Source: an uncultured Pseudomonadota bacterium (lineage in GTDB: Bacteria > Bdellovibrionota_B > Oligoflexia > Oligoflexales > CAIMVM01). From it: a stretch of DNA of 41,098 bases. Each line of letters opens with the position of its first letter. Position 1 is the stretch's first letter. The stretch is from the NCBI GenBank assembly GCA_903844895.1, contig CAIMVM010000255.1:1-41098 (forward strand), written 5' to 3'. Below, in pieces: positions 292 through 41,098 of the stretch. Both the position numbers and the translations under genes were made by a program. The notes beneath the pieces were generated by a model. The model did not search any database and was not told where the DNA came from. It worked only from the letters and a program-made list of their open reading frames with translations.

Positions 292-1725
292 ATGGGAAAT
301 CTTTGGCTCATATTGGTTTTATTGACTTCCTCTTTAGGTTTCGGCGGGTCTTTTCTTGCTGAAATAGGTCCAAATGGAGTTTGGCAAGCAAAAAGATTTG
401 CGTCATTTAAGGCCCAAGGGGCCCGCTATTCGGAATCCTCTCGGCTACTGAGCTTTCAGTTAAAAAGTGTCGAAGATACAGCCCTGGCTGAATTTTACCT
501 GCGAAGCTATATTGATTCTAGCCACCTGAATTATGTAATTAGTAACGGAAAGGTGCAAAAAGCACCTATATTTGCGGAGCCAGGCGCAGGCGGACAATGG
601 TTTCATGAACGTATAGGAACACTCAAGGCGTGGGAAACTACACGCGGAGACTCTAGAATTACCGTGGCGGTTCTCGATACGGGATTGGATTATAACCACC
701 CGAATCTCAAAGAGGCTGTAGCAATCAATCAGGGGGAAATCCCTAGAAATGGCATAGATGATGATCACAATGGCATCATTGATGATTACCTAGGATACGA
801 TTTTGTAAATGAAGACCCTGATCCCATGGATGAAACCTCATTTTATAATCCAGGTCAGGGCACTCATCTTTCTGGCATCATAGCGGCACAGCCTACTGCT
901 GAAGTTGGTGTTTTTGGAATCGCCCCACTCACAAAGGTTCTGCCCATTCGCATTCTCGATCGAAATGGTGAGGGTACTTTAGGCGCTGTAGTCAGAGGGA
1001 TCGACTACGCAGTTTCTCGCGGAGCAAAAATAATAGTTGCAGGTTGGAGTGCAAACCTTTCTAAAAAGGGAGCAGCGCCATTAGAAGCTGCAATTTCAAG
1101 AGCACATTTAGCTGGGGTTCTGATTGTGGCAGCAGCAGGCAATCAAGGGCGCTCTATCGATAATGTGGATATCTATCCTGCAAACATTCGCCTTCCCAAT
1201 GTGGTATCAGTGACATCCACAAACCAAGTGAATTCAAAATCGAGCTGGGCCAACTTTGGACTAAATTCTGTTTCCATTCTGGCGCCAGGAGATAATATTT
1301 TAAGTACTCTTCCTAAGGCGGGGCATGGACGAGTGAGTGGAACTGCATATTCAGCGGCGGTAGTTGCAGGTGTAGCCGCCCTGACCCTGTCTCGAGTGGT
1401 TCTCACACCAGCAGAACTCATATCTCGTTTGCAGCAAACAGGAGTTCAGATCACAGCCGAAGCTCTTTGCAAATGTCTTGTGAATGCCGAAGAATCGGTA
1501 GTTTCCTCCATGCCAATTATATATCCGAGTTATTCAGTGGCTAAGGTAGGACAAAAGTTAAGATATCAAGTTTCAGGAGACGCGGGGCCGATAGAGGTAA
1601 GTGACAGTAATCTTGCAGAAATTGATGAACAGGGTAATTTAGTCGCAAAGAAGGCAGGTGTAGTTCAGCTGAAAATTCCTACCCATCCAGATGCAAAGCC
1701 AGCAGAACTTCGCATCAATCGCTAG
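292..1725 (+). CDS. Subtilase-fold (S8) secreted protein, probable pseudoprotease
   Basis: This 477-residue exported protein has an S8 peptidase domain and a C-terminal Ig-like domain. Residues 1-22 form a hydrophobic signal. The Asp motif is intact (VAVLDTGLDYNHPNL, Asp129), as is the oxyanion Asn (AAAGN, Asn284). The catalytic His of the H-G-T-H motif is Gln189 (GQGTHLSG). The catalytic Ser of GTSMAAP aligns with Ala352 (SGTAYSAAVVAGVAAL), so two triad residues are missing. Ser354, two residues downstream, does not align with the nucleophile. Residues 407-477 resemble a group 2 bacterial Ig (Big2) domain (SNLAEIDEQGNLVAKKAG). The fold is certain. Loss of protease activity is inferred, and a binding or chaperone role is possible. 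The ATG at 292 is preferred over the in-frame GTG at 286 because GGGG lies 5 nt upstream of it. Confidence 0.88.
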   Translation: MGNLWLILVLLTSSLGFGGSFLAEIGPNGVWQAKRFASFKAQGARYSESSRLLSFQLKSVEDTALAEFYLRSYIDSSHLNYVISNGKVQKAPIFAEPGAGGQWFHERIGTLKAWETTRGDSRITVAVLDTGLDYNHPNLKEAVAINQGEIPRNGIDDDHNGIIDDYLGYDFVNEDPDPMDETSFYNPGQGTHLSGIIAAQPTAEVGVFGIAPLTKVLPIRILDRNGEGTLGAVVRGIDYAVSRGAKIIVAGWSANLSKKGAAPLEAAISRAHLAGVLIVAAAGNQGRSIDNVDIYPANIRLPNVVSVTSTNQVNSKSSWANFGLNSVSILAPGDNILSTLPKAGHGRVSGTAYSAAVVAGVAALTLSRVVLTPAELISRLQQTGVQITAEALCKCLVNAEESVVSSMPIIYPSYSVAKVGQKLRYQVSGDAGPIEVSDSNLAEIDEQGNLVAKKAGVVQLKIPTHPDAKPAELRINR

Positions 1726-1971
1726 GCGCTACATGACACTTATGTAAACTTGGCCCGCAGACCTTTTAGCCCGACGTGCTATTTTCTTGGACAGGGCAGC
1801 AAGAAAGCAGTGGGAGCCATTTTTTCGTCCATCAAATAAAAGCAAATGAAGACCACCACGGCACAATGCTGGCCCAGCTATGTTAAAAAAAACTGCTGTT
1901 TTGGCAAACTACAAATGGTCTTCCAGGAATGATTAGAGTGTCTTTCTCATCTAAACACGAAAATCAAAGGT
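1726..1971. other. Intergenic, convergent genes
   Basis: This 246-bp gap separates two convergent genes. No strong hairpin plus T-tract terminator, RNA or small ORF with an SD was recognised. Confidence 0.4.
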
Positions 1972-2514
1972 TTAAAATTTAAGATACCATTTATTTTCTT
2001 CTTTATCTTCGAAACTAAAATAGGCCCTAGTCAGAATTCCTATCGGAGTCGTAAAGCCAATAGTAGAAGCAGTAATCGTACCTTGGGGATTTACAAAATA
2101 AAACACAGGCAGTTCTTTTACCTTAAAAGCTTCCAATGCTTTTTGATAGCCAAAGAAAGCTTCGACATCCAAAGTGTTTTTCTGAAATTCCAGAACTTCA
2201 TCAGTCGACTTATAATTTTCGGCAATAGAAAAAACTTTAAATTTCTTAGGAAGAATGGATTTAACCATATTCAGACTTCTAGCCGTCCATCGACTCTCTT
2301 TTATTGATGGTGAGTATACAAACAAAATTTGAAAAACTTTGTCTTTGGGGAGAGCCTGACTAGTGACGCCGTCCATGCTTCTAAATCTCATGGAGGGAAG
2401 TTTCGATCCTTTGGGTACCAGGAATTGCTGTCTATAACTGTCGTAGCCCAGCCAAATAATCAAAGCCATTATTATAAGTAACACGGCATTGTTTTTAGAG
2501 AGTCTCTTTAGCAA
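1972..2514 (-). CDS. Membrane-anchored thioredoxin-fold protein lacking CxxC
   Basis: This 180-residue protein has one N-terminal membrane segment (about residues 9-25), which suggests periplasmic display of the rest. The body resembles the TlpA/AhpC-TSA thioredoxin fold. A strand (FQILFVYSPS) leads into the place where the CxxC redox motif should be, but SPSIKES stands there and no cysteine is present. The cis-proline strand is conserved (KELPVFYFVNPQGTI), followed by a typical turn. Thiol-disulfide exchange is therefore unlikely, and a structural or binding role is more likely. The TTG start at 2514 is supported by a GAGG SD on the minus strand at 2522-2525. The assignment rests on fold-level motifs and is moderately sure. 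Confidence 0.65.
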   Translation of the reverse strand: MLKRLSKNNAVLLIIMALIIWLGYDSYRQQFLVPKGSKLPSMRFRSMDGVTSQALPKDKVFQILFVYSPSIKESRWTARSLNMVKSILPKKFKVFSIAENYKSTDEVLEFQKNTLDVEAFFGYQKALEAFKVKELPVFYFVNPQGTITASTIGFTTPIGILTRAYFSFEDKEENKWYLKF

Positions 2515-2583
2515 TGATAAACCTCATAGATTTGAATTCTATTTTAGACTAGTCTTGCAAATTGACAAAGAAATGGATTTGTG

Positions 2584-5055
2584 ATGATCAAACTTCCGAT
2601 TGAAGATGCAAAAGTCGAAATTGAGGAGAACATTCTTGCTTCCAATCAGCTCATTATTAGAGCAGAGCCTGGTTCCGGGAAAACGACTCGAGTGCCTCTA
2701 TTCGCATTTGGAGTCTTGGGGGGATCCGTTGTGGTCCTTGAGCCCAGGCGAATTGCGGCAAGGCTATCAGCAGAGCATGTAGCTCAATCGATCGGTGAGC
2801 CCGTAGGCAAGACTGTCGGGTATAGGGTGCGCTATGAGGCGCAAGTCACCAGCGAGACTAAAATTCTTTTTATTACAGAAGGATTATTTTTACGACTGCT
2901 CGTTGAAGATGCATGCCTTTCAGAGATCAAAGCTGTAATAATTGATGAGTTTCATGAACGAAGTCTTCATACAGATCTAGCTCTCGCTCTCGTCAGGAAA
3001 TTGCAAGAGACCACTCGCAAGGATCTTCGTCTGATTGTCATGTCTGCGACGATTGATCTCGAAGCGCTAAAGAATTGGATGCCTCAAGCTTCCACTGTAG
3101 ATGTTAAGGGGCGCGTATATAGCGTGGAGCAGCGCTATCAAGAGCCCCAGGCTTCTGAATTTATAGATAAACAAATCTCCCGGGCAATAAAAAGCTACTA
3201 CAAAACTGGGAATGTTTTAGTCTTTCTGTCTTCAACATCAGAGATTTTAGGTACTTTGTCGCGACTTGAAGGCGAATGGGGCCGGTTTGACATTTTGCCT
3301 CTTACGTCTGATTTAGCCAGGACAACTCTTCCCAAAATATACAGCGGAACTAAGCCTAAGATAATACTAGCAACTAACGTTGCAGAAACTTCTATTACGC
3401 TTCCCAGCGTTAGCTTGGTCATTGATAGTGGATGGCACCTCAGCGGAAGGTACTCACCGTGGTCAGGGCTTCCCATTGTAGAGAAAAAGAAAATTGCTAA
3501 GGATTCGGCAGTCCAGCGTATGGGGCGAGCTGGTAGAGTTGAAGCTGGAGTTTGCGTTCGGTTGTATTCACAGAGAGAATTTGACTATCGAAATGAATTT
3601 ACTGCCCCTGAAATTAGTCGTGTTGATATGACGCAAACACTTTTAGAGTTATATAGTCTTGAATTGCTTTCAATTCAAGACGGCGGTGATGTCCACTTTA
3701 CGTTCGAATGGTTTCAGTTACCAGAGCTTGAACATGTCAAGTCAGCCTTGAATACCTTAAGGAGCCTAGGAGCCATCAATGAAGCCGGAGTTTCCAGTCT
3801 GGGAGCCCAGATGGCAAGGAAGCCCATGCATCCACGTTTGAGCGCAATTCTTTTACATGGCGAAAGTCTAGGCTATCGAAATTTCGCAGCTTGGATTTGC
3901 GCCCACCTCTCTGAGGGCGGCGCGGATACCCCAGACATAGTTTCCGACACCATGGATCGGCTGCGAGGAAAAAAACTAGGTCCCGAATCAGACAGAATAG
4001 AAAAGTTTTATAGGAGTCTCATCGCTTCAAGAGGGAAACAAGACTTTGACATGTTGGCCGAAAAATCTGTGCCTGATACACAATTGGCCACTCAGATCAT
4101 ACTAGCTGGTTTTAGCGATAGGCTAGGAAAGTTACTTCCCAAAGGCGCAGAACAGTTGTCGAATGGAAAGTTTCGCGCAGAATATGCATTTTCCCTTGGA
4201 CGTAGCGGCACTCTGGAGCAGATGGCTCCGCCAAGGGAGCTTTTAATCGTTTTAGGTGCTACAGAAGTCAATACAGGACAAACTCGAAAAACCCTTATAA
4301 ATATCGCTGCCCCTATAGAAAAGAATGTCTTAGTGAGTCAACCGAGAGTTAAAGTTGAAACTATAGTCGAAAATTCATTAAGTGATGGACTCGTTTATGA
4401 AGTAGAAAGAACGTTTTATGACGCACTTCTTCTTGAGGAAAAAAGAGTTAGAAAGTCTCCGGTTGTTAAAGGTTTAGAGTCCGAAATCAAGGCTGGTTGG
4501 CCGAGGATTTTTAAGGACTATCGGATTCTTGAAACTTATCACCATGTCATTGATTTGCTCGATCGACGAGGTCTAAAGCATGACTTCACTAAATTGGAGG
4601 GAGAGTTTTTAGATCTAGTGATTTCCTTCATTGCCGATGAGTTTCGAAATGTAGCTGAAGTGAGACGAGCGTCTATTATAACAGCGCTTACTGCCCACCT
4701 TGGTTATGAAATGTGGAGTCTTTACGTGAAAGAGTTTCCATCAAAAATAAAGATTCCAAGTGGCAGGGAAGTGGATATTCATTATGAAGAAGACAAAGAC
4801 CCTTGGATACAGGCAAAACTACAAGAGTTTTTTTCTGTAAAGAAAAATTTCACCCTCAGTCAGTTTCAAATTCCTATATCGATTCATTTGCTTTCACCAG
4901 GTGGAAAACCGCTTCAGGTCACCGCCGACCTTGTCCGATTTTGGACTGGATCCTACCGGGATATACAAAAAGAAATGAAAAGTCGGTACCCTAAACATCC
5001 ATGGCCTGACGATCCTTCCCAGTTTCCGCCGGTCCTTATCGGCAGGCATCGCTGA
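2584..5055 (+). CDS. hrpB: ATP-dependent helicase HrpB
   Basis: This 823-residue DEAH-type RNA helicase has near full family length. Counting from the GTG at 2581, the motifs are Walker A GSGKTT (31-36), DEFH (122-125), SAT (155-157), TNVAETSIT (265-273) and QRMGRAGR (312-319). Helicase-associated regions follow, and the tail KSRYPKHPWPDDP is typical of HrpB C-termini. HrpB is an NTP-dependent RNA helicase, and its physiological role is poorly defined in most bacteria. The ATG at 2584 is chosen because GGA lies 6 nt upstream of it, although an in-frame GTG directly precedes it. The gene is divergent from the thioredoxin-like gene and appears monocistronic. Nothing looks broken. Confidence 0.95.
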   Translation: MIKLPIEDAKVEIEENILASNQLIIRAEPGSGKTTRVPLFAFGVLGGSVVVLEPRRIAARLSAEHVAQSIGEPVGKTVGYRVRYEAQVTSETKILFITEGLFLRLLVEDACLSEIKAVIIDEFHERSLHTDLALALVRKLQETTRKDLRLIVMSATIDLEALKNWMPQASTVDVKGRVYSVEQRYQEPQASEFIDKQISRAIKSYYKTGNVLVFLSSTSEILGTLSRLEGEWGRFDILPLTSDLARTTLPKIYSGTKPKIILATNVAETSITLPSVSLVIDSGWHLSGRYSPWSGLPIVEKKKIAKDSAVQRMGRAGRVEAGVCVRLYSQREFDYRNEFTAPEISRVDMTQTLLELYSLELLSIQDGGDVHFTFEWFQLPELEHVKSALNTLRSLGAINEAGVSSLGAQMARKPMHPRLSAILLHGESLGYRNFAAWICAHLSEGGADTPDIVSDTMDRLRGKKLGPESDRIEKFYRSLIASRGKQDFDMLAEKSVPDTQLATQIILAGFSDRLGKLLPKGAEQLSNGKFRAEYAFSLGRSGTLEQMAPPRELLIVLGATEVNTGQTRKTLINIAAPIEKNVLVSQPRVKVETIVENSLSDGLVYEVERTFYDALLLEEKRVRKSPVVKGLESEIKAGWPRIFKDYRILETYHHVIDLLDRRGLKHDFTKLEGEFLDLVISFIADEFRNVAEVRRASIITALTAHLGYEMWSLYVKEFPSKIKIPSGREVDIHYEEDKDPWIQAKLQEFFSVKKNFTLSQFQIPISIHLLSPGGKPLQVTADLVRFWTGSYRDIQKEMKSRYPKHPWPDDPSQFPPVLIGRHR

Positions 5056-25110: not shown

Positions 25111-25304
25111 ATTCACCCCTATGGAATTGTCAAAGTTGCAGCAAAGGCCCTATACCCCTGTTTGTCGTTTTGGCAACCTTGATCGTCTAATATAGTTAAT
25201 TCATGGGGTTGGTGGCAAGCGATGCTCACCGAATGTTAACTATTTGACCAAGCCGTGCCGAATAACTAAGCAGAATCTTTGATTTGTGGTTAGGAAGGTG
25301 GGTT

Positions 25305-28300
25305 TTGGCAGATATAAAATCAACATCCATGCCGGCACTAGCTGGTTATCATACACTTAGGATCCTTGGTCGCGGCGCCATGGGGGCTGTCTATGAAGCA
25401 GTGCCCTTTTCAGATCCGACAAGCAGGGTGGCCATTAAGGTTATTGATCAGTCGGGAGAAATCCCACATGAAGTGTATTTACGTTTTCAAAAAGAGGCTG
25501 CGGTTATGGGGCAGCTTTATCATCCCAATATTATAACTTTTTTGGATTTGGGAGCAGTCAAGTCACTTGCAGAAGACGATTCGAATCTTGGATACTTTAT
25601 CGTCATGGAGTTGGTGCGTGGGCAAAATTTGAAGGAGATCATCACCGAAGGGATAAAGCGCGGCGATGAGTTAAAGCTTCTCTTTAGAATCGGTCGTCAA
25701 CTTGCCTCAGCACTTGATTACACTCATAGCAAAAACATAGTACATCGTGACCTTAAACCTCAAAACATTATTGTTTCCTTCCCAAATCAGAAGATAGGTG
25801 ATGCTGAAGCGAAGCTTTTAGATTTTGGGGTAGCAGGCTTATCGCAAGCGAGGCAGTATGTCGGCGATGGAAGGTCCAGCGGTATCGATGATTTTGCTGG
25901 TACACCGCTATATATGGCGCCTGAACAGTCTGGTCTGACTCACTGGGAATCAGATCATCGAGTGGACATTTACTCGATGGGTTGCGTCCTGTTTGAGATC
26001 CTAATGGGTAAGCCGCCGTTTTCTGGCAAGACTAAAGATGATCTAAAACTAAAACATCTTTCGGAAAAGCCCCCAAGCCTTTTGGATCTCAGGCCTGATT
26101 TGCCAAAAGCACTCTGCCAACTCATCGAAAAATGTCTTCAAAAGGATCCTGATCATAGGTATCAATCTGCGTTTAGTCTCTATTGCGACCTTTATTCCAT
26201 TGAGCTAAATGGCATGCAGGCAGGCTTCGAAATGAATTTAGGCGGATTCGACAATTTTAATGCGATCAATGCAAAATTTCCTTTGATTGGTCGAAAAGAT
26301 GAATTTGAGAAACTCATAAATTTCTATATTTCGCTTGAGCATGAAACTAGGTCTCGAATCTCTGTGGTTTCAGGTGAAAGTGGATCTGGAAAGTCTCGCA
26401 TTATACAGGAAGTTCGCAATTTTTTGATACAGAGGAAGGTGAGATTCGTTGGTGGATCATTTTCGCGACATGATTCTAAAATATCGTTTAACGCCCTAGC
26501 TTCGTCTTTTGATGAATATCTTTTGAAAGTAAAGCGAACCCAGCCAGGTGAAGCTCAAAGGCTTAAAGAAACGTTCCAAGAGGTTTTAGGTGCAAGCTTA
26601 AATGATCTTGCAGTAGTCATCCCCATTTTAAAGGACTTTAGGGATGAAACAGTAGAAAGAACGGAAGTTAGCCAAGCTGGGCAAATTGACACCTTCACAA
26701 AAACATTCTTAGACTTCACATCATGTCTCATGTCTGATGATCAGCCTATGGTCTATATTTTTGACGATATTCATAATTCGGACGACGATTCCTTGAGATT
26801 GATTGATGATTTTTTTACTCATTCTAACACTCAGAAGATATATTTGATTGTAACATACAAAGAGGAGTACCTTCATCGGAGACCGCTTCTAAAAGACTTT
26901 GTAGATAAAATACAAAAACTAAAAAGACGCTTCCAGCATGTCAGTCTAGAGAACTTTAAATCGACTGAAATTTCCTTACTACTTTATAACCTTTTCAATG
27001 GCAACAAAGTTTCGGATTTCTATTTGAAATGGATCGAGAGTCAAACGAAAGGAAACCCCTTACAAATTCTTGAACTAACAAAAAGTTTGATTAAAAACAA
27101 CAAACTTAGGGCGAATCCAGAGGGATGGGGGGAAGGTCTTACCGATTTAGATACCTTGGGGGCGGCTCTCCAAAGTAGCGACTTGGCAATTTCTAGGATT
27201 CAAAACTACTCTTCTGAGCATTTATTGATTCTGCAGTATGCTGCCGTCGCAGGGATGTCCTTTAAAGCGGAGAGTGTAGCTATTGTTTCCGATTTCTCTC
27301 GTGACCTTGTGAGGGCTACATTAGCAAAGGCCAAAGATGATGCACTTATTTTAGAATTGCCGAATCAAAGCTACGTGTTTAGTCACTATGAAATTCGAGA
27401 AGCGCTGGTCGATGGAATAGCTAAGTCGAAGCTGCTTCAAATCCACCTGGACTTTGCCGTTCAGTTGAACAAAGAAGAGCCTGCTAATTCCGACCAAGAT
27501 GTGTTTAGCATCTCTCACCACTACAATTTAGCGACTGGGGGTAGATCAAGAGTCCCTGTTGATGTCTTGTCGCAAGCACTACTGTCTAACATAAGGTCAG
27601 CAAGGCTTGCTGAAAAGAGAAAGACTTATCATTTTGCCTTGGAATACTACAATAAGAGTCTTCAGCTTTTCGATACTAATCCCGTTTTGAGGGAGTCAGA
27701 TCAAGACTATGCGGGAGTTCTAGCAGGTGCGGCATATGTTTTAATAAAGCAGAAAGACTTTGATCGCGCCAAGGGAAATATTCGCAAAATCTTGGATTTA
27801 AATGTTTCGAAGGACAGCAAAAGGTCGGCGCTGTTTGACTGGATCCAGATGAACGCAATTCAAGGTCGCATCTCCGAAACTTTAGCAAATGCTCGCCATT
27901 TACTAGGTCGATCTCTTCTTTTGGTGCCAAGTAAGATTTTTTTGCGTGGCTGCGTAGTATTACTCGGTGACCTTATAAGTCGGTTTCAAAAGCTTCCTGG
28001 ATATTCCTCTCTTGCGATATTTCAAAATAACCAGCCAAATAATGGCGAAACGAGAGATCAAAAAATATTGAGTATAGCCTTTAGGACAGCATTTAGAGGG
28101 AGAATACGAGAGGCTTTTCAGTTGCAAGTTGTCGCGGGAGGCTTAGCTTCTTCGGGTAGGCTAAATGAGGCTGATGCGTTGGATTATATACTGGATAGAG
28201 TCGTTCTCTTGCATGGATTGGGTCTTAAAGGAATCGCGCGAACGATGCTATTTGAGGCTTCAAAAATGCCAGGACTGAGTTCACACTCCAGAGCGAAGAT

Positions 28301-30638
28301 ATTTCTGGTCAAAAATATCTTCTTTGACTTCAATAAATTAGAGGTCAAGAAAAGCATCGACTATTTCATATACAGGAAAGGATATGAAGTCTTGCAATGG
28401 CCGGAAGACGCACAATATGAAGCCGTTCATAGAGGGATGTCTGCTTGGGCGCTTTTGCAGCAGGGGGAAATCATTCGATCTATGGACCAAGCTAATCGTG
28501 CCTATAGAATGCTTCCTATTCGAAATCAAGTAGGGACATTTGGAGCGGTAACTCTTTTGCTTAGTCTCTCTTTAAAGGGTGAGCGTGATCAATTATTAAA
28601 GGTTGGGAAGAAGTGGCTTAGACGTAGAAAAGAATCTGGCCATAGATCAAATAACATTTTTGCGATGGTTGCTGCAAGTTTGATCTATATAACATCTGGC
28701 GATAAGGCATCTTGTCAAGAAATATTTGGCCGGATATGCAAAGAGTTTGAAGGTGTGTTTGTCAAGAAACATAATTTCCCTCATGAGCTTGACCTGATAA
28801 GTTTCTATTTTATATTCTATCCTTTTCATTTTGAGTATGAGTTTGGCTCACCTATTAATGGCAATGAGAATCTTAGCAATATGTATAGCAGCTTTTCCAA
28901 GGGCGTTTTTAATTTCAAAGTCTCTCCGCTCTATCGTCAAATTTTTCAGCTACTGTCATTCGATTTTGTAGCCCAGGGACAGAATGCTTATACTGCCTGG
29001 CGTGAATTAGAGCCAACACTGGCTGCCCCGAACCACCATCTGTTAAGATCTCTTATTAGCACAAAAGTAGGACTTAGTCTTTGGAAGGATTTCGGAAAGT
29101 TACCGAGGATAAGCAATGCTATATTGCAGGGTCATTCAACGTCTAGAAGCTTATCGATAACGCTTTTAACCAAAGCAATAGAGTCTAAATTGACAGCCGC
29201 TGGCATCAGCTTTTTAAAAGATGATGTCTCTGAAGGAATTGCTAATTTTGCAGCTAGAGTCGCATATTATCCCTCGACGATTACCGAAGAGTTGTTGGAC
29301 TACATGTCTCGTTCTGACCGCAGTCGTGGCGGGCGGGATGATATAGATAAAGCGGCAGCTTTGCTTGATTCTCATTATGGTTCTACGGCGATCTATATGT
29401 TACAGGGCGCACGCCTTGGAAACTCTTTAATAAAAGGAGAGCCAGGCTCTGAGGAATTGGCAGAAAATATCAGAGAATTCGCCTCGGGAGCGACAACTTC
29501 CTTTATTCCTACTGCAAGTTCCCGAGGAAATCGAGTCGAAAAAGACCAAGATTCATCGCCTGAGAACACTAGTAGTGAATTTTCCGCTGGTAAAAACATA
29601 GGTCGTAAAGGTCTTTTTGAAGAGACAAACATCTATTTAGAGTTAGAGTTTGAGTCCGAGGAAGTGACCAGGAAGAACGAGCCCAGCTTGGATTTAGCTT
29701 CCGGGCAGCATAAATTAACCCATGCTCCACATTCTCCCAATAGTATGGGCTGTCTCATACCCATTAAGCACTGGGGAGATATTTTAGGTTATTTGTTTGT
29801 GGATAATATAGGTGAACTATATAAACGTGACATTGCAGCTAGTCGCTCTGAGCTCGACTACTTTGGGTCTATTTTGGGCACTGCAGTGTCGCTACAAAAT
29901 TCGTGGGTGGTTGCGCATGATCACGTGGTCAGGGATCCTGACGGATCCACAGTTTTGGAACCTTGCAGCTGGTTAAATGTTTGGTTTCACGGTCATTTAC
30001 GTCGAGACCGTGAATCGACCTGGTACCTTAGTGCCAACCTCGGTGCTGAATTGTATGTAATTATTTATGGACATTTAGACGGAAAAGAAAAGTTCAGAAA
30101 GCGCTTGAGCAGCTATATCTGGGTATCTGTGAATGCTACTATCTCTGAATTAAAGACTAAGAGTGATGAGATTTCGATCCACCATATATACGAACGGATA
30201 GCCCTTCAAATTCAACAAAATGCAACCGACATTTTAGAATTAACCCAATTAAATTTTGCGGTTAGCCTCATCCGCAAAGGGGACTTGTCTGTGGAGAGCG
30301 CCTATTTTGGTTCCAGCAAGCCATGGGTTTTAGGTGGTAAAAACAACCAAAGTGCCTTCAATGATGCCGTTGCTACAATAGATGGCTATTCCAAGCTCTT
30401 AAGGTACTTTCATATAGATTCGAATCTAAGTGACTTTCATCCCCTCCTATTGTCTAAAGATCCGTCAAAGATTGACCGAAGGGTAGATGCTAAGATGCAA
30501 GTTTCCCTGGCTGAGGCCTACCGTTGTTTTATAGGGCAAGAACCTGACGGGGACCAATTACATCTAGCTCTAGAGGCAGTGTTAGGGCTTGATTCTATAC
30601 CGCGATATTATCTTGGCGTAGGAGTCAAAGGTGCTTAA
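25305..30638 (+). CDS. Giant Ser/Thr kinase-AAA ATPase-GAF-phosphatase-like signalling protein
   Basis: This 1777-residue cytoplasmic protein starts with a Hanks-type kinase (about 14-300): GRGAMG loop (23-28), VAIKVID Lys, HRDLKPQN, DFG and MAPEQ are all intact. A STAND/AAA ATPase (about 325-650) follows, with Walker A GESGSGKS (357-364) and Walker B MVYIFDDIHNS (482-492). Residues about 740-1440 are helical, TPR-like repeats. A GAF-like domain (about 1475-1535) contains GCLIPIKHWGDILGYLFVDN. The C-terminus (about 1557-1680) recalls a PP2C/SpoIIE fold (YVIIYGHLDG, LTQLNFAVSLIRKGDLSV), but the metal-binding aspartates are not evident. The TTG at 25305 is chosen for SD AGGAAGG. It resembles PknK-type sensors. 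The input signal and targets are unknown. Confidence 0.88.
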   Translation: MADIKSTSMPALAGYHTLRILGRGAMGAVYEAVPFSDPTSRVAIKVIDQSGEIPHEVYLRFQKEAAVMGQLYHPNIITFLDLGAVKSLAEDDSNLGYFIVMELVRGQNLKEIITEGIKRGDELKLLFRIGRQLASALDYTHSKNIVHRDLKPQNIIVSFPNQKIGDAEAKLLDFGVAGLSQARQYVGDGRSSGIDDFAGTPLYMAPEQSGLTHWESDHRVDIYSMGCVLFEILMGKPPFSGKTKDDLKLKHLSEKPPSLLDLRPDLPKALCQLIEKCLQKDPDHRYQSAFSLYCDLYSIELNGMQAGFEMNLGGFDNFNAINAKFPLIGRKDEFEKLINFYISLEHETRSRISVVSGESGSGKSRIIQEVRNFLIQRKVRFVGGSFSRHDSKISFNALASSFDEYLLKVKRTQPGEAQRLKETFQEVLGASLNDLAVVIPILKDFRDETVERTEVSQAGQIDTFTKTFLDFTSCLMSDDQPMVYIFDDIHNSDDDSLRLIDDFFTHSNTQKIYLIVTYKEEYLHRRPLLKDFVDKIQKLKRRFQHVSLENFKSTEISLLLYNLFNGNKVSDFYLKWIESQTKGNPLQILELTKSLIKNNKLRANPEGWGEGLTDLDTLGAALQSSDLAISRIQNYSSEHLLILQYAAVAGMSFKAESVAIVSDFSRDLVRATLAKAKDDALILELPNQSYVFSHYEIREALVDGIAKSKLLQIHLDFAVQLNKEEPANSDQDVFSISHHYNLATGGRSRVPVDVLSQALLSNIRSARLAEKRKTYHFALEYYNKSLQLFDTNPVLRESDQDYAGVLAGAAYVLIKQKDFDRAKGNIRKILDLNVSKDSKRSALFDWIQMNAIQGRISETLANARHLLGRSLLLVPSKIFLRGCVVLLGDLISRFQKLPGYSSLAIFQNNQPNNGETRDQKILSIAFRTAFRGRIREAFQLQVVAGGLASSGRLNEADALDYILDRVVLLHGLGLKGIARTMLFEASKMPGLSSHSRAKIFLVKNIFFDFNKLEVKKSIDYFIYRKGYEVLQWPEDAQYEAVHRGMSAWALLQQGEIIRSMDQANRAYRMLPIRNQVGTFGAVTLLLSLSLKGERDQLLKVGKKWLRRRKESGHRSNNIFAMVAASLIYITSGDKASCQEIFGRICKEFEGVFVKKHNFPHELDLISFYFIFYPFHFEYEFGSPINGNENLSNMYSSFSKGVFNFKVSPLYRQIFQLLSFDFVAQGQNAYTAWRELEPTLAAPNHHLLRSLISTKVGLSLWKDFGKLPRISNAILQGHSTSRSLSITLLTKAIESKLTAAGISFLKDDVSEGIANFAARVAYYPSTITEELLDYMSRSDRSRGGRDDIDKAAALLDSHYGSTAIYMLQGARLGNSLIKGEPGSEELAENIREFASGATTSFIPTASSRGNRVEKDQDSSPENTSSEFSAGKNIGRKGLFEETNIYLELEFESEEVTRKNEPSLDLASGQHKLTHAPHSPNSMGCLIPIKHWGDILGYLFVDNIGELYKRDIAASRSELDYFGSILGTAVSLQNSWVVAHDHVVRDPDGSTVLEPCSWLNVWFHGHLRRDRESTWYLSANLGAELYVIIYGHLDGKEKFRKRLSSYIWVSVNATISELKTKSDEISIHHIYERIALQIQQNATDILELTQLNFAVSLIRKGDLSVESAYFGSSKPWVLGGKNNQSAFNDAVATIDGYSKLLRYFHIDSNLSDFHPLLLSKDPSKIDRRVDAKMQVSLAEAYRCFIGQEPDGDQLHLALEAVLGLDSIPRYYLGVGVKGA

Positions 30639-37762: not shown

Positions 37763-37865
37763 ATGAACCGTTTTCACCTCGGCATTTTGTTGGTTATCGC
37801 AGCACTGTCTGCGTGTATGAATCGCAAATTTCATTCTGAGACCGAGTCTAATGACCTAGCTTTCC
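37763..37865 (+). pseudogene. 5' part of a lipoprotein gene cut by an IS element
   Basis: This segment encodes signal peptide MNRFHLGILLVIAALSAC (lipobox LSAC) and about 16 further residues ending SNDLAF. It has a good SD (GGGAAG, 37751-37756). The frame then hits a TAA inside the left end of the IS element. The 3' part resumes at 39526. Removing the element and one TTTCC copy gives SNDLAF-RGNSGNELQ in one frame, so the ancestral product was a lipoprotein of about 214 residues. Today only a truncated peptide of about 35 residues could be made. Confidence 0.8.
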
Positions 37866-37873
37866 TCTAAATT

Positions 37874-37884
37874 TGTACACTACA
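37874..37884 (+). repeat. Left inverted repeat of the IS
   Basis: TGTACACTACA, the exact inverse of 39514-39524. A second direct copy occurs at 37958-37968, and a partial inverted copy (TAGTGTA) at 37943-37949. Confidence 0.85.
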
Positions 37885-37899
37885 GAACCCACCTGAATT

Positions 37900-37939
37900 A
37901 ACCTGCTGATATTTTTGATTTGTTTTTTAAGCGCAGGTT
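37900..37939. repeat. Hairpin within the IS left end
   Basis: AACCTGC (37900-37906) and GCAGGTT (37933-37939) form a 7-bp inverted repeat between the two direct copies of the terminal motif. It may be structural or a binding site. Confidence 0.6.
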
Positions 37940-37957
37940 TAGTAGTGTATTTTTATG

Positions 37958-37968
37958 TGTACACTACA
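37958..37968 (+). promoter_or_regulatory. Internal copy of the IS terminal motif upstream of the transposase
   Basis: A perfect TGTACACTACA lies 84 bp inside the left repeat and 46 bp before the transposase ATG. With the inverted partial copy just before it, it could be a transposase-binding site for autoregulation. This is inferred from position. Confidence 0.55.
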
Positions 37969-38003
37969 GGTCTGGGCTATTTTGACAAAAATAGGGCAAA
38001 AAT

Positions 38004-39518
38004 ATGTCTTTTATACGTAAAATAAAGAGGAATGGGCGAGTTTACTTAGCAGAAGTTGAAAATTATCGAGATGCCGGCAAAGTCAAGCAACGCCATATCA
38101 AATATTTGGGGCTCTCCCCTGAAACAAACGAAGACAGTTTTCAGTTATATTCTAGGGATGTTACTGTAGATTCCGTTAAGGTTCATGGGCCTGTAATTGT
38201 GCTTGAAAGCTTGGCGAGGGAACTTGGACTGTTTGAAATTCTTGGTGATATTGCTCATCCCATTTTAACTCTTACGTTTGCTCATTGCATGAATTATAGA
38301 AGTGTCTCAGAGACAGAAAAATGGTTCAAAAATACTGATTTAGCCTCGGTTTTTGGTTGTGATGAAATCACAGAAGCCCAATTGTACAATTCGATATCTA
38401 GGCTTTCAAAGTATGATTTTTCCTACCTCGAAAAGTCAATATTTGAAAAACTTACTGGCATTTTTGGTGAGGATCACTCGGGCGTTATCTATGACGGAAC
38501 TAACACATACCTCACTGGAAGTCGCTCAGAGCTTGCAAAAATGGGCAAATGCAAAGAGGGCGTGAAGAGCAGAAAGTTGATACAAATTGGACTTGGCATT
38601 ACTAAAACGTTAGGTCTGCCCATTTTTCACCAGGTCCACGCCGGAAATATTCATGACACAAAAATGTTCAATGAGGCAATTTTGAGATTTTCAGACCTCG
38701 GGACAAAAAATGGATTAGCAGTGTTTGACAGGGGAATTGCCTCAGAAAACTGCATTTCTAAGCTTGAAGCAATGGGCTGGAAGTGTCTTGCCGGACTCCC
38801 CATGCACAAAGGAGTTAAGACAGCAATTTCAAATCTTGACTTTGACAATCTAAAAAACTTCAGAAATCTAGTGATACAAGGGGATACTAAGTTCTTTGTT
38901 ACAAACATTCCATTCAAGATTGGCAAAACAACTGGAAAGCTTATGATTCTTCAAAACTTCCTTAAAAAGCAGATGCAAACTGTGGAACGCATGGCTCTTA
39001 TAGAGGAGGCAAAACAGTATCTAGGAACAAAGCAAGACTTGGTTTCTGATGAAATTAAGAAGTGCTTTACGACATCTGGAAAAGTCAACCGGCACGCGGT
39101 TCAGAGAATTGAAAAGTTAGATGGACTCTCTTTCATTTTTACAAATGCAAAACTTTCTCAAAAGGAAGCAGTACAGCATTATTTTGCAAAAGACCTGATT
39201 GAACGCTGTTTTAAGCTCTCAAAAAGCACTCTAAGTCTAAATCCTATTCGAATGCAGCTCGATGAGAATATAAAATCCCACATCATGATCTGCTATCTTG
39301 GACTAACGCTGTTAACGACAGTTCGACTTCGCCTAGAGAAAAAAGGCATTTTTAGAGATCCTGGTGAAGTTTTGCGCAGTTTGGACTCGATTTTTAAAGT
39401 TTATATGACAGGAGAGGATTCTAAAACCAAGTCAAAAGTACCGTTTTGTAAGGTAAATACGCTGTCGAATCACCAAAGCAGTATAATTAAGATTATTTCA
39501 CCAAAAATCGAAATGTAG
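38004..39518 (+). CDS. IS1634-type DDE transposase
   Basis: This 504-residue transposase is of the IS4/IS1634 superfamily. Catalytic residues are Asp164 in VIYDGTNTYL, Asp242 in LAVFDRGIAS and Glu400 in YFAKDLIERCFKLSK. The last motif fits the IS4-type Y-x2-R-x3-E-x6-K signature with Lys396 in place of Arg (Y393, K396, E400, K407). The N-terminal SFIRKIKRNGRVYLAEVENYRD and HIKYLG are typical of IS1634 proteins. Length is full and no frameshift is seen, so it is probably functional. Its stop codon lies inside the right inverted repeat. The SD is weak. Codon use looks more AT-rich than the flanking lipoprotein genes. Confidence 0.93.
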   Translation: MSFIRKIKRNGRVYLAEVENYRDAGKVKQRHIKYLGLSPETNEDSFQLYSRDVTVDSVKVHGPVIVLESLARELGLFEILGDIAHPILTLTFAHCMNYRSVSETEKWFKNTDLASVFGCDEITEAQLYNSISRLSKYDFSYLEKSIFEKLTGIFGEDHSGVIYDGTNTYLTGSRSELAKMGKCKEGVKSRKLIQIGLGITKTLGLPIFHQVHAGNIHDTKMFNEAILRFSDLGTKNGLAVFDRGIASENCISKLEAMGWKCLAGLPMHKGVKTAISNLDFDNLKNFRNLVIQGDTKFFVTNIPFKIGKTTGKLMILQNFLKKQMQTVERMALIEEAKQYLGTKQDLVSDEIKKCFTTSGKVNRHAVQRIEKLDGLSFIFTNAKLSQKEAVQHYFAKDLIERCFKLSKSTLSLNPIRMQLDENIKSHIMICYLGLTLLTTVRLRLEKKGIFRDPGEVLRSLDSIFKVYMTGEDSKTKSKVPFCKVNTLSNHQSSIIKIISPKIEM

Positions 39519-39524
39519 TGTACA
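39514..39524 (-). repeat. Right inverted repeat of the IS
   Basis: TGTAGTGTACA, the reverse complement of the left repeat. It overlaps the last codons of the transposase and is followed by T and the TTTCC duplication. Confidence 0.85.
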
Positions 39525-39525
39525 T

Positions 39526-40071
39526 TTTCCGGGGGAACTCAGGTAATGAACTCCAAAACTCCCCGAGAGATATCATTCCTGCCGAGATCAGTTGTATCGA
39601 AGATCCTAATAGAGACAGATGGAACTACACAGTGCGCGTCACCAGTGCTGGTTCATGCGAAATGGTAGCAGCTAAGGGGCAATTGGAACCACTTGAAGCA
39701 GAAGTTTGTTCTGCGAAAACCTTTGTGGAAGAAGGGGGCGTTCGCTATGAAATTGCACTTGATGGCAACGCTGGCTCTCCCAAGAGGTTTATGAATGTTT
39801 GGTTTATCAATGGAAGAGGAGAGGGTCCTGCGCTGTTTAGGAACAATATTCCCGTATTACTGAAATGCGGTTTCTTATCGGGTGCTGGCTTAGCCAGCTC
39901 ACCGAATAGCAACGCGGAAAACACCCCCCCCCCAGAAACCCAGCTGGCAATCCAGAGGATTCAGGCGCTCGCTACAAGTGCCTAGGTTTTGAGAGCGCAG
40001 TAACATACAGCAGCAAAGAAGAGTGTTCAAAAGCTGCATGCTCCAACAGCATCTGCGTCAAAGCAAGCTAA
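39526..40071 (+). pseudogene. 3' part of the IS-disrupted lipoprotein gene, also frameshifted at a C10 tract
   Basis: The frame continues from the 5' part as FRGNSGNELQNSPRDII and then a globular segment with cysteines (ISCIED, GSCEM, EVCSAK, LKCGF). At a run of ten C (39924-39933) the current frame goes on only to a stop at 39985 (QALATSA). One extra C, or two fewer, shifts to a frame reading RNPAGNPEDSGARYKCLG and then a four-cysteine tail ending SICVKAS at 40071. The rebuilt gene with C11 is 645 nt, exactly 215 codons. This is either a decaying gene, a phase-variable tract or a sequencing error. Confidence 0.75.
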
Positions 40072-40786: not shown

Positions 40787-40976
40787 CGGCAGGCTTTCGC
40801 TTTTCTGTGTGGCGGTGTCGACAAGTCTGAGTATTCCTGCACCCGACGGGACGTACACAGCGTTTACAGGCAATCGTTCTGCTTCTAATCAGTGTCTATA
40901 TGCACCATCCACGGCACCCGCGGACACATATGCTGTATCTGTGTGGGCACGCTCGATCCCAAACTTCCTGACCTAA
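40787..40976 (+). other. Open stretch without start, possible gene fragment
   Basis: One frame is open from 40752 to a TAA at 40974-40976 and includes GTYTAFTGNRSASNQCLYAP and DTYAVSVWARSIPNF. It has no convincing start codon or SD, and it ends at the junction with the putative IS end that follows. It could be a remnant of another lipoprotein gene cut by that element, or chance. Confidence 0.3.
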
Positions 40977-41098
40977 ATACGTAACGAGCCGAATAAATCT
41001 TTTATTTTTGGATCGTTACTTTTTTTGTTGCAGAATATTGTTACGTATTGTATGCTTTTAATACGTAACACTGTACTGAGGTTGAAAATGGCGCATCC
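40977..41098 (+). mobile_element. Probable left end of a second IS element (partial)
   Basis: ATACGTAAC occurs at 40977-40985 and 41061-41069, with an inverted copy GTTACGTAT at 41040-41048 and a hairpin GTAACGA/TCGTTAC (40981-40987, 41013-41019). The same layout, with the same 84-bp spacing between the direct copies, is seen at the left end of the IS at 37866. CTAAAT precedes the first motif in both. An ATG with SD follows. The right end is outside the window. Confidence 0.55.
41088..41098 (+). CDS. Start of a gene running off the window, putative transposase
   Basis: The ATG at 41088 has SD GAGG (41078-41081) 6 nt upstream and begins Met-Ala-His before the window ends. By position within the IS-like left end it is probably a transposase gene. 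No protein evidence is available. Confidence 0.4.

Follow-up and report, generated by a model that had tools for sequence, protein, structure and literature searches.

Some IS elements (insertion sequences) of the IS1634 type appear to carry, at their left ends, a plan that suggests that they switch themselves off with their own transposase. Two such elements, here called A and B, lie in the window, which is an entire contig (C255; 41,098 nt) of a draft genome that totals 4.23 Mb on 372 contigs. In both, the terminal inverted repeat contains an inner box, further copies of which recur at the left end around the predicted transposase promoter. The boxes, their positions, their element-specific matching and the tips of A are read directly from the sequence (Table 1). 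To judge from these features and from relatives in other genomes, the transposase probably binds the inner box of the terminal repeat, and the extra left-end copies would form a putative operator for self-repression.

Table 1. Features of elements A and B in the window.
Feature	Position	Strand	Details
Target-site duplication of A, left copy	37849..37854	.	TAATGA
Element A, complete IS1634-family insertion sequence	37855..39543	+	1689 bp; terminal repeat alignment, second right end (L007), 6-bp target repeat, host frame restored
A left terminal inverted repeat	37855..37884	+	Outer tip CCTAGCTTTCC plus inner box; tip matches C-----YT (PMC2266710, available text)
A inner box, terminal repeat copy	37874..37884	+	TGTACACTACA, 19 bp inside tip
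A inner box, inverted partial copy	37942..37949	-	GTAGTGTA
A -10-like hexamer, best-scoring	37948..37953	+	TATTTT
A inner box, direct copy	37958..37968	+	TGTACACTACA
A transposase gene	38004..39518	+	504 aa; D164, D242, E400; Tn5-like predicted fold
A right terminal inverted repeat	39514..39543	-	Inner box at 39514-39524
Target-site duplication of A, right copy	39544..39549	.	TAATGA
Element B, left end only	40959..41098	+	Start approximate; contig ends within B
B left terminal inverted repeat	40959..40985	+	Tip CCAAACTTCC plus inner box
B inner box, terminal repeat copy	40977..40985	+	ATACGTAAC, 18 bp inside tip
B fourth, degenerate inverted copy	41011..41019	-	GATCGTTAC
B -35-like hexamer	41028..41033	+	TTGCAG
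B inner box, inverted copy	41040..41048	-	GTTACGTAT
B -10-like hexamer	41051..41056	+	TATGCT, 17 bp after -35, between inverted and direct boxes
B inner box, direct copy	41061..41069	+	ATACGTAAC
B transposase gene, first 11 bases	41088..41098	+	Paralogues L002-L004, protein fragments

Two IS1634-type elements in one genome

The motifs at 37874 and 40977 had originally been taken for the tips of two IS elements. Comparisons with further B copies (L002-L005), with an intact relative of B (L014) and with a second right end of A (L007) place them instead 18-19 bp in from the tip, where they make up the inner half of a terminal repeat built of two parts. With TGTACACTACA as the tip of A, the flanks gave no direct repeats of 10 bp or more, and a longer terminal repeat was therefore sought. 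The bounds of A follow from the alignment of its terminal repeats and from L007, which has sequence in common with A outside TGTACACTACA. Excising A in silico, with one TAATGA kept, yields a single open frame of 175 aa, a predicted lipoprotein from the look of its signal peptide. Within the interrupted frame lies a tract of 10 C (39924-39933), the sole run of C or G in the window to reach a length of 8, past which a different frame continues with a cysteine-rich tail; the gene may thus change frame there through slippage, decay or assembly error. Elsewhere in the window, a frame of 1784 aa at 25284-30638 contains both a protein kinase and an AAA domain.

The transposase of A scores 222 bits against NF033559 (cut-off 100). 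Its residues D164, D242 and E400 are invariant across an 18-sequence alignment and are taken as the DDE triad. An AlphaFold2 model (mean pLDDT 86.3) has as its five best matches in the PDB Tn5 transposase-DNA complexes throughout, the best at E 6.8e-10. The IS1634 family, once called the IS1549 group, was separated from the IS4 family of DDE insertion sequences. In the available part of its description, it is given the tip C-----YT, an AT-rich target duplication of 5-6 bp, a length of 1500-2000 bp and poorly conserved ends (PMC2266710); a 6-bp duplication is recorded for the member ISPfe2 in the part of a second source at hand (PMC3281130). A belongs with the family by its NF033559 score above the cut-off and agrees with this description in its 6-bp AT-rich TAATGA and its 1689 bp, and the tips of A (CCTAGCTT; right end CCTGAGTT) and B (CCAAACTT) follow the consensus (PMC2266710).

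The start of B, about 40959, is approximate. Its copies L002-L005 in the same genome have roughly 19 bp in common outward of 40977, and L014 carries the outer tip sequence of B at both ends; a target duplication at L014 was sought by eye, and none was clear. The gene at 41088, preceded by an SD-like GAGG and beginning with ATG as predicted, is indeed the start of an IS1634-like transposase gene, as its paralogues L002-L004 indicate. A mid-protein fragment of B type (L012) matches NF033559 at 1.2e-11 with 44 bits, below the cut-off of 100, and L014 reaches 132 bits, above it, with neighbouring matches joined. By proxy of its paralogues and of L014, B is of IS1634 type. A right end to match the left end of B is present in the relatives L014 and L066 but was not found in this draft genome, where it was looked for and where B occurs as fragments only. 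Contigs C254, C255, C287 and C300 (with L002, the window, L012 and L003, respectively) terminate within B copies, which is usual where an element present in many copies interrupts the assembly of short reads. The copy in C300 (L003, 1630-1640) has ACG in place of the transposase ATG of the window, L002 and L004, and L005 (1500-1570) is a 67-bp B-type left-end remnant beside an IS1380-like transposase frame on the opposite strand (1690-3036).

Boxes and predicted promoters at the left ends of A and B

TGTACACTACA occurs in the window at 37874 (+), 37958 (+) and 39514 (-) only, and ATACGTAAC at 40977 (+), 41040 (-) and 41061 (+) only. A has three box copies at its left end and one at its right. 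In both elements, none of 1000 dinucleotide shuffles scored as well as the best two copies at the left end (p = 0.001). The -35-like TTTTAA of A at 37925 is weak, as is its predicted promoter.

Several details of the original prediction fare differently from one another. The direct copy does stand exactly 84 bp from the first motif in A and B, but in the other elements scored this spacing is 79-109 bp, and in L106 it is 130 bp. The inverted copy is full in B (at 41040) but reduced in A to 8 bp. Stems of 7 bp are present in both elements (AACCTGC/GCAGGTT at 37900/37933 in A; GTAACGA/TCGTTAC at 40981/41013 in B), but a hairpin as a shared feature is unsupported; the stem of B is the box itself with the fourth, degenerate copy. 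CTAAAT precedes both motifs as described and lies within both left repeats; it recurs in two of the four further B copies (L002 and L004, not L003 and L005) and is absent from the right end of A. A palindromic core (TGTACA, TACGTA) is contradicted as a shared rule by boxes with GATAACC or TGTAACGAGG. As for the shared layout as a whole, the plan of tip box, inverted copy and direct copy recurs in other members with different box sequences, but it is not universal in IS1634. Where it occurs, the box pairs mostly overlie the predicted promoter.

Survey of IS1634 members

An IS1634 match at E <= 1e-15 was found in 69 of 383 sampled genomes, and members were gathered from these 383 genomes, from further genome searches and from plasmid records. 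From 105 loci plus A of the window, 19 loci (left ends, fragments and re-fetched copies) were skipped by name, leaving 87, which are loci rather than distinct elements; some fragments are among them, as are four copies of equal score from a single genome (L039, L049-L051). A terminal repeat was detected at p <= 0.02 against shuffles in 48 of the 87 loci; removing L020, L024 and L028 by hand for odd repeat placement left 45, and setting aside L066, L088 and L099, whose left region was too short, left 42 for testing.

On this unchosen set, the outermost 45 bp at the right were compared with the left subterminal region, an element's own right end being set against those of other elements. Twelve of the 42 gave p <= 0.05, where about 2 are expected, and 8 of the 12 beat all other right ends outside close relatives. 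The class defined below accounts for 8 of the 12 (A, L014, L062, L059, L068, L104, L105 and L079), and 4 lie outside it (L094, L041, L065 and L097). The other 30 stayed above p 0.05, among them the class members L054 (0.071) and L069 (0.57), the latter because its start codon was set too early, so that the pair fell outside the tested region.

Searches with single elements returned few relatives. A plasmid search with the A transposase gave no match at 1e-15, and a phylum search for A at E <= 1e-20 returned only its own genome, among 58. Among 96 relatives, the L004 fragment matched 3, one of which is the genome that it comes from, and it had no confirmed match in the genome contig collection, where the sole match of L014 was a record identical to itself. 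Viral contigs that were scanned held no relative, a phage collection searched with L062 gave no match, and searches around other genomes mostly brought back the same sample or small phyla.

A class of elements with the same plan

By their left ends, 11 relatives of A and B appear to have the same plan with boxes of their own, two of them weakly or in part, which gives a class of 13 (A, L069, B, L014, L066, L059, L079, L062, L068, L104, L105, L054 and L015). L104 is an element on a Carnobacterium maltaromaticum plasmid. The left copies are mostly inverted and direct half-sites upstream of the transposase gene. Boxes were taken from the right end, and for B from the left tip. Because the class was assembled after the left ends had been viewed, the counts that it yields are partly circular: two left box copies reach p <= 0.009 against 1000 shuffles in 11 of the 13 elements, the own box comes first in a box swap in 10 of 12, and of the 11 non-redundant elements, 9 have their best sigma70-like -10 within the pair, where 3.08 are expected (P = 2.1e-4).

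The two misses in the shuffle test are L062 (p = 0.25), in which the half-sites overlap into one palindrome that the non-overlap rule cuts, and L015 (p = 0.13), which has one copy only, an inverted one. In the swap, the own box of L066 came second, outranked by that of its near relative L014, and that of L015 fourth. That the boxes are chance resemblances or degenerate relics of nested insertions, which the fragmentary state of B in this draft genome might encourage one to think, is hardly credible in view of the shuffle and swap tests and of the recurrence of the plan across genomes.

The -10 test used an E. coli-like promoter matrix and covered the 11 non-redundant elements in which both copies were scored; for L079 and L015 the scoring gave no direct copy. 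L014 and L066 (the direct copy of L066 being 6 bp) have their best predicted -10 outside the pair, and so has L004, a copy of B that does not belong to the 11. L062 has TTGACT-17-TATAAT with the -10 within TTGTTATAATTATAACAA, L059 has TTGACA-17-TATCAT inside its palindrome, and L069 has TAGAAT between the half-sites with the ATG directly following. The box pair adjoins the start codon in L069 and L079. In IS10 and IS50, a hairpin in read-in transcripts masks the translation start, and an inverted pair might similarly act in RNA, with read-through transcripts folding the half-sites into a hairpin that hides the start. A -10 between the arms, which leaves both arms only to read-through transcripts, would suit such a device, as would the pairs next to the start codons of L069 and L079; folding, however, leaves the match of the half-sites to the element's own right-end box unexplained, as well as the direct-repeat box layouts of other members, and we regard it as quite unlikely.

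Box sequence differs by lineage, A and B being unlike within one genome. A quick transposase tree places the class in an 11-row clade that includes the B fragment L004 (support 100) and in the pair A/L069 (support 100), which makes two changes in all for the plan. L106, found by protein similarity alone, has at its left end a tip box that is repeated exactly as a direct copy, next to which lies an inverted copy with two mismatches; its right end was looked for and not found. L107 was viewed, and as its ends were not resolved it stands outside the counts. At positions where the two terminal boxes differ, the operators agree with the right end in 9 elements and with the left in 1, with 2 ties; with windows picked by the left box, the figures are 7, 2 and 3. 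With the operators thus mostly on the side of the right end, it is the left-tip copy that looks diverged.

Members outside the class

The tip box and operator plan is not family-wide in IS1634. Outside the class stand 34 members, 25 of them long enough for an internal left-right match and 27 for a second-copy scan. An internal left-right match of the element's own at p <= 0.05 in at least one orientation was found in 11 of the 25, whose two ends thus have a deeper internal box in common; in 9 of these 11 it lies 77-107 bp inside the left tip and 68-86 bp inside the right tip. The boxes of these nine mostly have the same genomic orientation, e.g. in L037 (ATGTAGTACAGACCT) and L025 (CCTGTAGGCACACG).

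In a scan made without a shuffle control, a second left copy precedes the start codon in seven members (L008, L022, L025, L053, L057, L089 and L094), ending no more than 1 bp from it in six of them, and L085 has an inverted pair at its left end. Eight members, hand-picked for two left box copies with weaker ones (e.g. L034, L084 and L095) left out, were examined for promoters, and in 7 of these 8 hand-picked members the best predicted promoter lies between the copies, where 2.1 are expected. In six of the eight (L008, L022, L025, L053, L085 and L094), 6-7 bp separate the end of the -10 from the start codon, which suggests that the transposase message is leaderless in some IS1634 members.

TnsB and MuA have multiple end sites that are used in building the transpososome, and the extra boxes could likewise be left-end accessory sites for transpososome assembly, their place on the promoter being incidental or secondary. 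The asymmetry of the ends (three copies at the left of A, one at its right), the pairs that miss the best -10 in L014 and L066 and the internal boxes at both ends in other members are all consistent with this. We nevertheless consider it improbable, if worth keeping in mind, because the best -10 falls inside the pair more often than expected, in six other members the end of the second copy is no more than 1 bp from the start codon, and a distance of 79 to 130 bp between the tip box and its direct copy would be odd for a fixed architecture.

A TGTAGTG/CACTACA core was seen by eye in several members of different hosts, e.g. L036 (ATGTAGTGCC; own p 0.12), and occurs also within the A box. Such recurrence across hosts is what one might look for if a host regulator, rather than the transposase, bound the boxes; yet the boxes of A and B differ in one genome, and boxes track the transposase lineage on inspection, which makes host binding very improbable.

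Comparison with known systems

For Tn7 TnsB and the Drosophila P-element transposase, binding sites overlap the transposase promoter and transcription is lowered, in families different from IS1634. With autorepressed IS elements, A and B share, on the level of sequence, copies of a terminal-repeat box on the predicted transposase promoter. In the text available for IS1, the protein responsible for autorepression is also a binder of the inverted repeats, and the promoter partly overlaps the left repeat (PMC12428005). The autorepression by an end-binding protein proposed here is similar to that of InsA/InsAB' on P_IS1 in IRL; in IS1, however, it is the repeat itself that the promoter overlaps, and the repressor, InsA, is a short protein of its own, whereas elements of the A and B type have extra box copies inside the element and one protein is seen. 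Repeated elements at the ends are also described for IS21 (L1/L2 and R1/R2), which differs, in the available text, in its transposase IstA/IstB and in having repeats at both ends, and for which that text mentions no promoter (PMC11208146). For IS1634 itself, the inner box, the operator and the subterminal repeat go unmentioned in the accessible part of the family description (PMC2266710). In the searchable text of the PMC literature, nothing was found that describes an inner box or an operator for IS1634, or its end recognition or self-limitation; most subscription papers and ISfinder lay outside this search.

Proposed mechanism and implications

The terminal inverted repeat would have two parts: an outer tip, CCTRRCTT-like, as the presumed cleavage site, and the inner box, some 15-20 bp in, as the presumed recognition site of the transposase. 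The left end repeats the inner box, usually in the form of two half-sites, one inverted and one direct, which lie on the transposase promoter and have the predicted -10 in or between them. Once made, the transposase would bind this operator and turn its own transcription off, and the same binding may also load the left end for transposition. Binding, repression and the start sites of transcription are what we infer here: the transposase is proposed as the binder because the right-end box matches the operator in a lineage-specific way, and repression because of the position of the box pair. With box and operator changing together between lineages, control in each lineage would be exerted by the transposase of that lineage.

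A further and rather doubtful extension is that box and operator act like phage immunity specificity, the transposase of the first copy silencing copies of the same lineage in trans. Only differently boxed elements could then establish themselves beside a resident lineage. If true, this would drive box change between lineages and would explain the presence of A and B, with unrelated boxes, in one genome. On this reading the operator would be occupied ahead of the left tip, given that the right-end box has kept its likeness to the operator copies and the left-tip box has drifted.

IS1634 elements are widespread, as their presence in 69 of the 383 sampled genomes indicates. The inner box helps to place true IS ends, as both motifs taken for tips were internal. 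For each lineage it also provides a candidate recognition site and operator that can be tested directly, and it may explain how related elements coexist.
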